Below, piece after piece: positions 30,055 through 40,703 of a stretch of DNA of 64,000 bases. The notes below the pieces were generated by a model that did no database searches, had not been told where the DNA came from, and saw only the letters and a program-made list of their open reading frames with translations. This DNA is from Natrarchaeobaculum sulfurireducens (GTDB lineage Archaea; Halobacteriota; Halobacteria; Halobacteriales; Natrialbaceae). The stretch's first letter is position 1; the number at the start of each line of letters is the position of its first letter. The stretch is from the NCBI RefSeq assembly GCF_003430825.1, contig NZ_CP024047.1, positions 2,604,001 through 2,668,000 on the forward strand, read 5' to 3'. Made by a program: the position numbers and the translations under genes.

Positions 30055-31122
30055 TCAGAGCGTGTACTCGTGGCTCCCGTCTTCGGTCTCGAGGAATGCC
30101 TCGAGCAAGTCGATCGTGCCTGCGATATCGTCGACGTGGGCAGTCTCGGTGACGGTGTGGAGGTAACGCGTCGGGATCGAGATGGCGCCGACGGGCTTTG
30201 CGCCGGCGGTGTGCTGGAATCCGGCTGTGTCGGTGCCGCCGGCGGGGAGGATCTCGAGTTGGTAGTCGATTTCGCGGTCCTCGGCGACGGCTTTCATCCG
30301 ACGGTGGACCTTCGGGTTGGTGATGACGCTCGAGTCTTTGAGTTTGATTGCAGTGCCGTCGCCGAGTGCCGTGACGCGCTCGCCGGCGTCGAAGCCGGGG
30401 ACGTCGTTCGCGACGGTGACGTCGAGTGCGATAGCAAGGTCGGGATCGACGTCGACGCCGAGTGCACGGGCGCCACGCAGGCCGACTTCCTCCTGGGCCG
30501 TTGCACAGAAGTGGATCGTCGCGTCGGGCTCCTCGAGTCGGCGGGCGGCCTCGAGCATGGCGAACAGACAGACGCGGTCGTCGAGGGCTTTGCCGGTGAT
30601 CGTCTCGCCGACGCGTTCGGTGGTCTGGTCCATCGTCACGAGGTTGCCGGGCGAGATGCGCTCGGTGGCCTCCTCGGAGGGAAGGCCGACGTCGACGACG
30701 ACGTCCGAGACCTCGGGGGTCTTCTCGCGTTCTTTCTCGTCGAGGGTGTGTGGCGGGGGCGAGCCGATGACGCCAGGGACGTCGCCGTCTTCGGTGTGGA
30801 TCGTCACTCGCTGGGCTTTGAGCACGCGGGCATCCCAGCCGCCGAGCGGGTCGAGTTCGACGAACCCGAAGCCGTCGTCGTCGCCTTTCACATATCTCAC
30901 CATGAACCCGATCTCGTCCATGTGGGCCGCGACGGCCACCTCGTGGTCGGTGTCTCCCTCGAGCGTGCCGACGACGTTCCCCATCGCGTCGGTTCGGACG
31001 CGGTCGACACTGTCTGCTAGCTCGCGGACGACGAGTTGTCGAATTCGGTCCTCGTAGCCGGGGACCCCGCTCGTCTCGGTCAGTTCCGTCAGGAGTTCGA
31101 CGTCGAGGGATGTCGAAGTCAT
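30055..31122 (-). CDS. M42-family metallopeptidase (TET aminopeptidase-like)
   Basis: A 355-residue dinuclear-metal aminopeptidase. Visible ligand motifs are AAHMDEIGFMV, GKALDDRVC, the catalytic TAQEEVGLRGA, ALDVTVAND and the final HVDD near the C-terminus. Archaeal M42 enzymes form dodecameric TET particles that degrade peptides after proteasome action. ATG 31122 has a TATA-like GTTTATAGC about 25 nt upstream (31145-31153, minus strand). Confidence 0.92.
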   Translation of the reverse strand: MTSTSLDVELLTELTETSGVPGYEDRIRQLVVRELADSVDRVRTDAMGNVVGTLEGDTDHEVAVAAHMDEIGFMVRYVKGDDDGFGFVELDPLGGWDARVLKAQRVTIHTEDGDVPGVIGSPPPHTLDEKEREKTPEVSDVVVDVGLPSEEATERISPGNLVTMDQTTERVGETITGKALDDRVCLFAMLEAARRLEEPDATIHFCATAQEEVGLRGARALGVDVDPDLAIALDVTVANDVPGFDAGERVTALGDGTAIKLKDSSVITNPKVHRRMKAVAEDREIDYQLEILPAGGTDTAGFQHTAGAKPVGAISIPTRYLHTVTETAHVDDIAGTIDLLEAFLETEDGSHEYTL

Positions 31123-31283
31123 GACTAGACGTGTTCCGTTCTGGGCTATAAACACGTGGTTCTCGGCTGTCTGGACGGGGGCTCAACCGCGACTCCCGAT
31201 CCCCGGTCGGCTCCTTCGGGACTGATCGCAGAGTTCGATGGTACCCGCTGGATATTAGCCCGTCGGTATAGTACTGTGTGTTC

Positions 31284-32450
31284 ATGAGTGACGTACGTGT
31301 TGCAGGAACAGGGTTGACCGCGTTCGGGAACGCACCCGAGCGGACCGGCCGCGACCTCTTCGCGGAGGCGAGTATCGCAGCCTTCGAAGACAGCGGTGTC
31401 CCCCGTGAGGACGTCGACGCCGTCTTCTACGGGAATTTTATGGGCGAACTCGCCGAACACCAGGGCCACCAGGGGCCGCTGATGGCCGAAGCCGCCGGAG
31501 TCGACGCCCCGGCGACCCGCTACGAAGCCGCGTGTGCCTCGAGCGGCGTGGCCGTCCGTGATGCTGTGGTTCGAATCCGCAGCGGTGCGGCCGATGTCGT
31601 CCTCGTCGGCGGCGTCGAGCGGATGACGAACCTCGGGACGGCGGGGGCAACGGAGGCGCTCGCCATCGCCGCCGACGAACTCTGGGAGGTGCGAGCCGGG
31701 ATGACGTTCCCCGGTGCATACGCGCTGATGGCGCAGGCCTATTTCACCGAGTACGGCGGCGAACACGAGGATCTGGCCCACATCGCCGTCAAGAACCACG
31801 AGAACGCACTGCCAAACGACAACGCGCAGTACCAGAACGCGATCGAGGTCTCGGACGTCCTCGAGGCCCCGCAGGTCTCGAGCCCGCTCGGACTGTACGA
31901 CTCCTGTCCGATCTCCGATGGGGCCGCAGCGGTCGTCCTGACGAGTGCGGCCTACGCCGAAGCCCACGGGCTCGAAGCTCCGGTCGCGATCACCGGCTCG
32001 GGACAGGGTGGCGACAGATTCGCCTTACACGACCGAGACTACCTCGCACGCTCGCCGGCCGCCCGCGAGGCCGGCGAAGAAGCCTACGCAGACGCCGGCG
32101 TCGATGCAGGAGACGTCGACGTCGCCGAGGTCCACGACTGCTTTACGATCGCCGAAGTGCTCGCGATCGAGGCGCTCGGTCTCGAGCCGGTCGGTAAGGG
32201 GATCACGGCGGCCCGTGACGGTCGGACGACCGCCGAGGGAGAGACGCCGATCAACCTCTCGGGCGGGCTGAAAGCGAAGGGTCACCCCGTCGGCGCGACC
32301 GGTGCCTCTCAGATCGCCGAGATCACGACCCTGCTCGCTGGGACCCATCCCAACAGCGAGTCCGTCGACGACGCGACGATCGGCGTCACCCACAACGCAG
32401 GTGGCACCGTCGCCAGCGCGGTCGTCCACGTTTTGGAGGTGGTTGCGTGA
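31284..32450 (+). CDS. Thiolase-family acetyl-CoA acetyltransferase
   Basis: A 388-residue thiolase of the archaeal/SCP2-like branch. The nucleophile Cys is in YEAACASSGVAV; EVHDCFTIAE and GGLKAKGHPVGATG provide the His motifs. In archaea this enzyme works with a DUF35 Zn-ribbon/OB-fold partner, and with HMG-CoA synthase in mevalonate synthesis; the partner gene follows at 32742. The last codons (LEVVA, TGA) form the first copy of a sequence then repeated in tandem. A GATATTAG element is about 30 nt upstream of the ATG. Confidence 0.92.
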   Translation: MSDVRVAGTGLTAFGNAPERTGRDLFAEASIAAFEDSGVPREDVDAVFYGNFMGELAEHQGHQGPLMAEAAGVDAPATRYEAACASSGVAVRDAVVRIRSGAADVVLVGGVERMTNLGTAGATEALAIAADELWEVRAGMTFPGAYALMAQAYFTEYGGEHEDLAHIAVKNHENALPNDNAQYQNAIEVSDVLEAPQVSSPLGLYDSCPISDGAAAVVLTSAAYAEAHGLEAPVAITGSGQGGDRFALHDRDYLARSPAAREAGEEAYADAGVDAGDVDVAEVHDCFTIAEVLAIEALGLEPVGKGITAARDGRTTAEGETPINLSGGLKAKGHPVGATGASQIAEITTLLAGTHPNSESVDDATIGVTHNAGGTVASAVVHVLEVVA

Positions 32451-32748
32451 GCGAACGTAGTGAAGCGAACGCAATGACGCCAGCGTATGCTCTGGAGGTG
32501 GTTGCGTGAGCAAACGTAGTGAAGCGAACGCAATGACGCCAGCGTATGCTCTGGAGGTGGTTGCGTGAGCGAACGTAGTGAAGCGAACGCAATGACGCCA
32601 GCGTATGCTCTGGAGGTGGTTGCGTGAGCGAACGTAGTGAAGCGAACGCAATGACGCCAGCGTATGCTCTGGAGGTGGTTGCGTGAGCGAACGTAGTGAA
32701 GCGAACGCAATGACGCCAGCGTATGCTCTGGAGGTGGTTGCGTGAGCG
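32435..32748 (+). repeat. 59-bp tandem repeat, 5.3 copies
   Basis: Units start at 32435, 32494, 32553, 32612 and 32671, with a partial sixth at 32730. The unit runs GGAGGTGGTTGCGTGAGCGA...TATGCTCT. Copies are identical except for a G-to-A change at 32512 in the second. The repeat bridges the thiolase stop and the start of its OB-fold partner. There are no variable spacers, so it is not CRISPR. Confidence 0.97.
32447..32745 (+). other. Five chained 20-codon mini-ORFs inside the tandem repeat
   Basis: Each unit encodes GTG start, [23 protein letters not shown]: ORFs 32447-32509, 32506-32568, 32565-32627, 32624-32686 and 32683-32745. Every stop overlaps the next start as GTGA, and each start has GGAGGTG about 6 nt upstream, inside the previous ORF. 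The last GTGA is the start of the Zn-ribbon gene at 32742. In the second ORF the third residue is Lys instead of Glu. Whether the peptides are made or useful is unknown. Confidence 0.6.
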
Positions 32749-33131
32749 AAAACACCGTCCGGGATGCTGGCTTCGACGACTGGCTCGACGCCGTCGAGGA
32801 GGGCCAAGCGTACTACCTCGAGTGTCCAAACGATCACGGTTCGCTGCCACCGCGGCGTGTCTGTCCCGACTGCGGCTCGACCGATCTCGAGGAAGTCCCC
32901 CTGCCAGAGAGCGGCGAAATCGAGACGTTCACCGTCACGTACGTCCCGACGCCAGCGTTCGAAGACGACGCCCCCTACGCGACGGCCATCGCGAACTTCG
33001 GCCCCGTCCGTATTACGGGGCAGGTCATCGGCGTCGACGTCGACGCGGTCGAGAGCGGCCTCGAGATCGAACTCGAAGTGACGGTCTCGGAGACGACCGA
33101 CGAGCGCGTCCTCGGGTTCAGTCCGGTCTGA
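32742..33131 (+). CDS. DUF35-type Zn-ribbon/OB-fold acyl-CoA-binding protein
   Basis: A 129-residue protein. A rubredoxin-like Zn ribbon ([10 protein letters not shown] and RRVCPDCGS) is followed by an OB fold ([33 protein letters not shown]). It is the usual partner of the upstream thiolase. The first metal pair has only one Cys, with a His nearby, so the zinc site may be modified. The GTG start overlaps the last mini-ORF stop and has GGAGGTG at 32730-32736. Confidence 0.88.
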
Positions 33132-33204
33132 TCGACCTACCGGTTCCCCATCGCGTTCACCGCCAGCGAACGGCCTTTGTTATTGCGGCACGTTCACACG
33201 AGGT

Positions 33205-33552
33205 ATGGCCCTCGCCGATCAGGAGTGTGAAGCCTGTACGTCCGAGGACGAACCGCTCACCGAGCCGGAGTACGCGGACTACCTCGGGGAACTCGAGGAC
33301 GACGTCTGGGCGGTCGTTGACGACCACCATCTCGAGGGAGCCTACGAGTTCCCGGACTTCCGCAACGCGCTCGAGTTCACCTACGAGGTCGGCGAACTCG
33401 CCGAAGAGGAGTGGCACCACCCGGACATCCACCTCCAGTGGGGCGAAGTCCGGATCGAGGTGTGGACACACAAGATCGACGGCTTACACGAGTCGGATTT
33501 CGTCATGGCCGCGAAGATGGACCGGTGCTACGAGGAGTATCCCGAGGAGTGA
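33205..33552 (+). CDS. Pterin-4a-carbinolamine dehydratase-like protein
   Basis: A 115-residue protein. The second half carries the PCD/DCoH motif: [20 protein letters not shown], then TH, GLHESDF. These hold the conserved His and Trp positions of the active site. An N-terminal CEAC adds a Cys pair. The family recycles tetrahydrobiopterin, but archaeal members have also been linked to molybdopterin metabolism; the role here is open. Confidence 0.8.
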
Positions 33553-33573
33553 CGATCAGCCGACGCGAGTAGC

Positions 33574-35541
<1,968 letters not shown>

Positions 35542-39419: not shown

Positions 39420-40703
39420 ATGTACGCCGCCGATAGTCTCACCGACGCCCTCCACCTGACGAAACGGTATCTCTCGGCCCTCTGGCTCCAGGGCTGGCTG
39501 AAACTCGGAATCGTTCTCGCATTTCTCGGCGGGTTCGGCGCGTTTCTCCAGGTGTTCAACGTCCCCGTCGAACTGGGTATCCAGGCCCTCGAGGGGTCCG
39601 ACGAACTCCCCCTCGTGGCCGCCGGGGCGGTGGCCGTCCTCGTGATATACGTCGCGTTCAGATACGTCGCCGCACTGCTCGAGTTCGTTTTCGTCGAATC
39701 GCTTCGATCGGAGACGATGTCCGTCCGGCGATACCTCCGGGCGAACGTGCGACGAGGCCTGTCGTTGCTCGTGTTTCGGTTCGCAGTCGGGATCGGCGTG
39801 GTCGTCGCCATCGCTGCCCCACTCGTGGCACTCGTCGTTCTGGGTGACGTGTCCGACCCGAACGCACTGTCAGCCGGGGCCGTCGCCGCGCTCGTCGCCT
39901 ACGCAGTGGCCGTGGTACTGGGTTGGTTCGTCGTCGACACTCTCACGAACGGCTTCGTCGTCCCGATCATGCTCCACGACGAGCGGGGCCCGATTAGCGC
40001 CTGGCGGCGATTCGTGCCGGTGATCGGCGCGAACTGGGTCGGCGTTCTCGCGTTCGTGCTCGTCGCCTGGACGATCGGCTTCGCCCTCTGGGCGGTCTTC
40101 GCCGTCGTCGGCTTTTTCGCCGCGTTCTTCGGGCTGTTCCTCTGGATTCTCTTCGCTGCCCTCCTGACAGAACTTCACGACTCGCTCGTGCTCGTCGCAG
40201 TCGTCGGGCTGCTGGTCGGCTACCTCGCCTACCAGTACGCGGTGGCGCTCGTCGAATCGCCCGTCCGGAGCTACGTTCGCTACTACGCGATCGGGATCCT
40301 CGGCGCAACCGACGACTCGCTCGACCTGGTCGCCGACCGACGGGCCGCGATCACCGCTGGAACTGCTTCGGGTGACGATCCGGGACCGATGCAACCGACG
40401 TCGGACCTCGAGCGCACCGACCGTCCGATGGATGTCGATGGCCCCGGCGGTGAGCCATCGACGGGAGACGAATCCGGTGGCTCCAGCGACAGAGCGTTCG
40501 ACGACCCCGTCTGGGAGGGCGAAAGCGTCTGGGACCAGCCGGTCGAGTCACGGGCCGACGACACGAGCGAGCCGTTGGACTCGAGCAACGACAGTACCGA
40601 CTCGAGCAACGACGGAGCCACCGAGACTCGGTCGGAAGCAGACGACAGGACGGACGAGGAAGCAGACGACAGGACGGACGAGGAAGCCGACGACTCGCGT
40701 TGA
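39420..40703 (+). CDS. Polytopic membrane protein (DUF7544-like) with acidic tail
   Basis: A 427-residue protein. It opens MYAADSLTDALHLTKRYLSA, which I associate with a haloarchaeal membrane family of unknown function. About 6 helices occupy residues 25-280. The last 130 residues are hydrophilic and acidic and end with a duplicated EADDRTDE, produced by a 24-bp tandem repeat near 40634-40682. A TATA-like stretch lies about 25 nt upstream of the ATG. Confidence 0.78.
   Translation: MYAADSLTDALHLTKRYLSALWLQGWLKLGIVLAFLGGFGAFLQVFNVPVELGIQALEGSDELPLVAAGAVAVLVIYVAFRYVAALLEFVFVESLRSETMSVRRYLRANVRRGLSLLVFRFAVGIGVVVAIAAPLVALVVLGDVSDPNALSAGAVAALVAYAVAVVLGWFVVDTLTNGFVVPIMLHDERGPISAWRRFVPVIGANWVGVLAFVLVAWTIGFALWAVFAVVGFFAAFFGLFLWILFAALLTELHDSLVLVAVVGLLVGYLAYQYAVALVESPVRSYVRYYAIGILGATDDSLDLVADRRAAITAGTASGDDPGPMQPTSDLERTDRPMDVDGPGGEPSTGDESGGSSDRAFDDPVWEGESVWDQPVESRADDTSEPLDSSNDSTDSSNDGATETRSEADDRTDEEADDRTDEEADDSR

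Follow-up and report, generated by a model that had tools for sequence, protein, structure and literature searches.

In mycobacteria, MIRUs occur as tandem copies that vary. They are apparently mobile repeats found at start codons, and they contain an internal ORF coupled at -4 (PMC12548453). Two further systems are known from haloarchaea. In Haloferax volcanii, overlapping gene pairs are translationally coupled; the Shine-Dalgarno (SD) sequence is not used for de novo initiation but contributes to reinitiation, which often depends on it (PMC6728339), and coupling is about halved at 13-14 nt between the genes and almost lost at 22-23 nt (PMC10666635). PATEs belong to the small mobile repeats of haloarchaea that lack a transposase; they have a palindrome close to each end, and terminal-only PATEs of 52 bp have been described in Haloquadratum (PMC3119063).

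In the present study, a window of 64,000 nucleotides from Natrarchaeobaculum sulfurireducens (NZ_CP024047.1, positions 2,604,001 to 2,668,000) was analyzed, in which an array of five repeat units stands between a thiolase gene and its partner. From the comparison of sequences, we consider it about three-quarters probable (0.74) that this array represents the fivefold tandem amplification of a small interspersed haloarchaeal element that inserts at translationally coupled junctions. In our best reading, the element is MIRU-like, translationally transparent and apparently mobile, and it preserves termination-reinitiation. Several features are common to this element and the MIRUs. First, the internal ORF overlaps the flanking stop and start: the mini-ORF closes onto the next gene in 101 of 104 distinct junction units and runs into it in frame in the other three, a count that leaves out L219, the one non-closing NTGA hit, which is a different intergenic repeat. 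Second, the insertions are interspersed at coupled gene junctions, as observed from empty and filled sites and many host pairs. Third, single or tandem copies vary between related genomes, here between species. The element differs from MIRUs in its archaeal host (Halobacteriales), in its two hairpins that covary, and in being targeted to the position immediately 3' of an SD. By analogy, the haloarchaeal element probably works like a MIRU; it is classed as MIRU-like rather than as a MIRU because the host differs and the two were compared by description. The junctions studied here show the -4 or -1 overlap, and the SD within the upstream ORF, that characterize termination-reinitiation. The SD in the upstream 3' end and the frequent subunit pairs are also consistent with the overlapping pairs of H. 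volcanii (PMC6728339, PMC10666635), although in that species the two genes meet directly, and here they are separated by a dispersed insert. The near-terminal palindromes (H1 and H2) resemble those of PATEs, but the reports on PATEs describe them as lacking target duplication and do not present them as coding.

The upstream gene (31284..32450, + strand) is an ORF of 388 aa with Pfam Thiolase_N and Thiolase_C_1 domains. The downstream gene (32742..33131, + strand; 129 aa) encodes, according to Pfam, an OB-fold/zinc-ribbon partner (DUF35, ChsH2-like), with OB_ChsH2_C over the cut-off and zf-ChsH2 slightly under its own; a pterin-4a-carbinolamine dehydratase gene follows the pair at 33205-33552 of the window. 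Between the two genes, Tandem Repeats Finder reported a repeat at 32434-32750 (period 59, 5.4 copies, 99% match), and, combined with the listing of units, the inserted array was placed at 32442..32736 (+ strand) as five 59-bp units of the form GTTGC-GTGA...GGAGGTG, with boundaries set by analogy with the empty and filled sites of relatives. The mini-ORFs, each of 20 aa and on the + strand, occupy 32447..32509, 32506..32568, 32565..32627, 32624..32686, and 32683..32745. They form a chain from the thiolase TGA stop (32448-32450), which overlaps the start of the first mini-ORF, to the partner GTG at 32742, which is overlapped by the stop of the fifth, and every overlap is GTGA. The native SD, GGAGGTG, is located at 32435..32441 (+ strand) within the 3' end of the thiolase gene, and the insertion point in the window, as judged from relatives, would be immediately 3' of it. 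Unit 1 supplies a second GGAGGTG at 32494..32500 (+ strand), and equivalent unit-supplied SDs start at 32553, 32612, 32671, and 32730 on the same strand, the last of which (32730-32736) serves the DUF35 gene. In each unit GGAGGTG is situated 5 nt before GTG, and the complementary CACCTCC is present in the 3' end of the 16S sequence of the same genome. An earlier note on this DNA had described a 59-bp tandem repeat bridging the thiolase and its partner, composed of five 63-nt ORFs that overlap by GTGA and each carry a GGAGGTG, and this description was borne out exactly. The peptide sequence it gave applies to four of the five units and not to unit 2 (VSKRSEAN...), in which the sole difference among the copies, one substitution of GAGCGA to GAGCAA, was found. 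A promoter inside the repeat, raised in that note as an argument against coupling, is unlikely in a unit with 42% A+T and A/T runs of 3 or fewer. The number of chance matches of the unit core expected in the window is 0, and no second site for the core was observed in the 3.79-Mb, three-contig genome of this organism. Elsewhere in the window, a short tandem repeat at 40634-40694 (GGAAGCAGACGACAGGACGGACGA; 24 bp x 2.5, 97% identical) has a period that is a multiple of three and is possibly coding.

The thiolase-partner junctions of relatives were collected using the partner protein as the query; one probe protein had a partly extrapolated tail, and its use was limited to fetching loci. Most of these junctions are plain short overlaps. 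Others contain one to three homologous units of 50-59 bp or slightly longer in the same layout: the SD GGAGGTGG and the start ATGAGCGA come first, followed by a tip GAGCGAACGnnGTGAGCGA, the spacer TACGCC, and a hairpin, after which SD and ATGA recur. No unit is present at L003, the closest locus, which comes from the same genus and has a thiolase 92% identical; because its spacer differs from that of the window, the boundary in the window is placed to the base by analogy. In three empty/filled pairs (L257/L255, L235/L225, and L240/L237), 59 bp have been added exactly 3' of the SD GGAGGTG. At leuCD in genus g12, the empty allele L257 reads CTTCCGGAGGTG-ACGGTATGA, and the filled allele L255 has the same two flanks separated by 59 bp that begin with GTCGCATGA and end with GCTCTGGAGGTG. 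At thiolase-DUF35 in genus g9, the sequence following the insert is common to the empty L235 and the filled L225 (ACGGATCGATGAGCGACGCCGAATCC vs ACGGAGCGATGAGCGACGCCGAATCC), and the empty L240 and the filled L237 both have ACGAACTGATGAGCGACTCCGA. The insert ends in a second GGAGGTG; GGAGGTG thus occurs on both flanks, and one of the two is possibly the element's own end. In the thiolase tree of g9, L225 falls beside L235 and L237 beside L240, and a third element subtype is observed in a separate clade of five species; this topology implies that the element was gained separately at the junction about three times, with two of these gains lying within groups of empty sites. As shown by these alleles, a single insertion adds 59 bp to a short-overlap gene pair at the position immediately following its SD, GGAGGTG. 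The upstream gene thereby acquires a new stop (typically ...EVVA*), where a mini-ORF starts at a -4 overlap, and the insert ends with a second SD, so that the downstream gene retains its own spacer and start.

Matches to a calibrated covariance model (R1) were observed in 50 of 125 genomes of Natrialbaceae (E up to 1e-3), where the weakest matches are other intergenic repeats, and in 106 of 392 Halobacteriales genomes (E up to 1e-6), representing 43 of 95 genera. The gene context was read for about 135 R1 hits, with hosts named by Pfam. The host pairs are unrelated to each other and often encode subunits of one complex; they include thiolase-DUF35, leuC-leuD, etfB-etfA, gcvP subunits, ATP synthase C/F, ribosomal L18e-L13, PTS EIIA-HPr, ABC ATPase-permease pairs, CbiQ with an ABC ATPase, ABC ATPase-amidohydrolase, HAD hydrolase-class II aldolase, F420 ligase-luciferase-like, DUF58-transglutaminase, and TrkA-domain pairs. 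The genes upstream of the element mostly end in EVVA, EVIA, EVVE, or EVVS, the codons for which come from the SD together with the first bases of the element. At leuC-leuD junctions of family f5 (L198, L202, L207, and L210), a subtype with a distinct H1 (ATGAGCTGTC..GACAGCGAATGCGA) is present, which suggests that the element inserted independently into this gene pair there. Other repeats with two hairpins were also encountered. A different interspersed intergenic repeat, GTGTCCCCGTGAGCGAGCCTGCGAGCGAACGGGGGCTCGTCGGAGCTTGCTCCGACGGTGGGACTGAAAG (L126-L131, L133, L134, and L139-L141, in G012, G062, and G063), has several near-identical copies away from coupled junctions. Another intergenic family, TTCGCGAACnnnGTGAGCGAAGGCTTGTCAGAGCTTGCTCTGACGGTGGATGAGCGA (L136, L137, L138, L142, L143, L218, and L219), shares the arrangement of H1 and H2, and the junction element may be related to it or derived from it.

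The earlier reader had missed two hairpins in each unit, as well as the existence of homologous units in further species and between further pairs of genes. In unit 1, H1 is located at 32443..32474 (+ strand; TTGCGT...ACGCAA), as revealed by covariation across 28 units and by folding, and H2 at 32480..32495 (+ strand; CCAGCGTATGCTCTGG), as revealed by covariation in homologous units; both recur every 59 bp, and H2 is degenerate in this genome. The 5' arm of H1 holds part of the mini-ORF start codon, and the 3' arm of H2 runs into the next SD, with GG common to both. In relatives, TCGCAT around the mini-ORF start pairs with ATGCGA (here TTGCGT/ACGCAA), and CCAGAGC pairs with GCTCTGG. The helices were derived from the alignment of the 28 units, in which 34 stem double-change cells were observed compared with 8.7 in shuffles, with a covariation score of 0.317 compared with 0.143; the seeds were partly gathered by a pattern fixing GGAGGTG, ACGCC, and some H2 positions, where invariance is partly by construction, and the independent covariation evidence comprises H1 and three free H2 pairs. 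Sliding the partner columns abolishes the signal. Between its paired segments H1 has tandem G-A mismatches, which are probably sheared pairs, and a GNA tip. In a larger set of units, the stems contain 73 G-U pairs compared with 28 A-C mismatches, which identifies the coding strand, whether RNA or single-stranded DNA, as the one that folds. In the folding of the five-unit array, the 3' arm of H1 is able to pair with the start region of the next unit, and the long structure has z = -6.6 for 401 nt. A scan of window positions 31000-34000 against Rfam 15 gave chance-level matches alone, with none above threshold. The H1-tip motif CGAACGNAGTGAGCG has 19 sites in this genome (up to 1 mismatch) compared with 0 for a reversed control; these sites (such as L310-L317) lie in varied hairpins, and L313 and L317 are apparently beside tRNA-like sequence. 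Because many of its copies in this genome lie outside the element, the motif alone is not diagnostic.

A chain at -4 requires a unit length of 2 mod 3. An NTGA start was found in 105 of 109 distinct hits, and the overlaps counted were of the -4 type in 111 cases, -1 in one, and -8 in two. Single-unit mini-ORFs are mostly 17 or 20 aa long (range 17-24), and arrays with 51-nt units close in total (51+59 in L022; 51+51+50 in L114, a 51-aa ORF). Among the aligned units, an extra base in H1 is associated with an H2 loop of 2 nt rather than 3 nt. Length changes inside the element are shown by the alignments to keep closure, and the hairpins to stay paired via compensatory changes. The units are related by descent, so the counts of closure and covariation are not independent; the host gene pairs are many, and several of the length changes look separate. 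With closure of the mini-ORF kept in essentially every homologous insert, the coupled, chained translation proposed in the earlier note is strongly supported at the level of sequence. Haloarchaeal coupling fails across about 20 untranslated nt, and a 59-nt insert with no ORF would therefore be expected to switch the partner off. Herein, we propose that the mini-ORF and its SD bridge this gap and make the insert tolerable. A ribosome finishing the upstream gene would reinitiate at the mini-ORF, translate its 17-24 codons, thereby melting the hairpin beside the second SD, and then reinitiate on the real downstream gene. In the five-unit array, six reinitiations would be needed from the thiolase to the partner.

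Alternatively, the element might be kept as a domesticated tuner, with the upstream-to-downstream protein ratio set by the extra reinitiations and by the hairpins that cover SDs, and with copy number as the dial. The favored hosts are subunit pairs, the clade of five species in one genus retains the element while the H2 stem changes by compensation, and in tandem arrays H1 is able to pair upstream or downstream, covering SDs and starts. However, most orthologous junctions work with no element, its presence is patchy, and copy number has no obvious pattern; a harmless passenger would also be expected to persist. We therefore regard such a regulatory role as doubtful. It is more improbable still that the repeat is a DNA-level palindrome element (IS200/IS605-derived, PATE-like) with an incidental ORF. 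The two near-terminal hairpins, the insertion 3' of a short fixed sequence, and the terminal-only 52-bp PATEs of Haloquadratum (PMC3119063) are consistent with this explanation, which could account for movement but not for frame closure, and closure is near-universal. Moreover, 15 Y1_Tnp loci had no convincing R1 match nearby, and the Y1_Tnp hit was absent in G151, G190, G183, and G157, of which G151 and G190 have many copies. With no matching ends and the enzyme missing from copy-rich genomes, the link to a Y1 (IS200/IS605) transposase was rejected. No mobilizing enzyme for the element was found in the search of copy-rich genomes for Y1 transposase and of the Y1 loci, and, regarding viruses as vectors, none of 25 exact hits of one pattern in viral contigs matched the model. 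Mobility of the MIRU-like element is what we infer from sequence comparison.

Local slippage, in which the native junction would have been duplicated by accident with the frame preserved by chance, is very improbable as the origin of the unit. The copies in the window are nearly identical and unique to this site, and the rise from one unit to five was probably a local event of ordinary tandem duplication; however, homologous single units are found at unrelated junctions across families, and the core is missing from empty alleles. Slippage is thus refuted for the origin and stands for amplification only. Across species, thiolase-DUF35 junctions have 0, 1, 2, 3, or 5 units, sister Natribaculum species have 1 and 2, and the array studied here is the largest among the loci read, the others having 1-3. 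The copy-number variation that the earlier note considered possible between strains was observed between species, and the unit itself is a dispersed inserted element that was later amplified in tandem here. A functional micropeptide is equally hard to credit. The length near 17 or 20 aa and the frequent MSE start and EVVA end might suggest one, but these terminal residues are encoded by the SD and start sequences themselves, some arrays have units fused into ORFs of 37-51 aa, and the core is read in two frames (...RMRVRQS... in 59 units and ...ANATTPE... in 30). A functional peptide was rejected on this two-frame reading, because of which the peptide is not the conserved thing; in these alignments, closure of the mini-ORF is conserved and the peptide is not. 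An assembly artefact is the least probable explanation of all. Near-identical tandem repeats are easily miscounted and the number five could be wrong, but the genome has three contigs, unit 2 has a distinguishing substitution, and independent arrays of 2-3 units occur in other genomes.

No published description of the element was found in the open-access literature, subscription papers being outside the scope of the search, and, as far as literature searches show, this would be the first MIRU-like element in Archaea, in a host group in which the SD serves reinitiation and not ordinary initiation. The inserts provide natural experiments on coupling, with junctions that have or lack a translated bridge and one to five successive reinitiations. 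These results suggest that, at many subunit pairs, coupling is important enough for inserts to persist only when they close the frame. They also suggest that continuity alone can maintain ORFs of 17-24 codons that annotation has overlooked. More tentatively, the element might belong to an undescribed, order-wide archaeal mobile family that homes to the SDs of reinitiation junctions and is made invisible to the host by its frame bridge and SD-gating hairpins, with arrays acting as a copy-number dial on subunit stoichiometry; we regard this wider proposal as possible rather than likely. In addition, units in frame with the downstream gene, which give it an N-terminal extension, were observed at L208, L209, and L213, a possible route to new protein N-termini.
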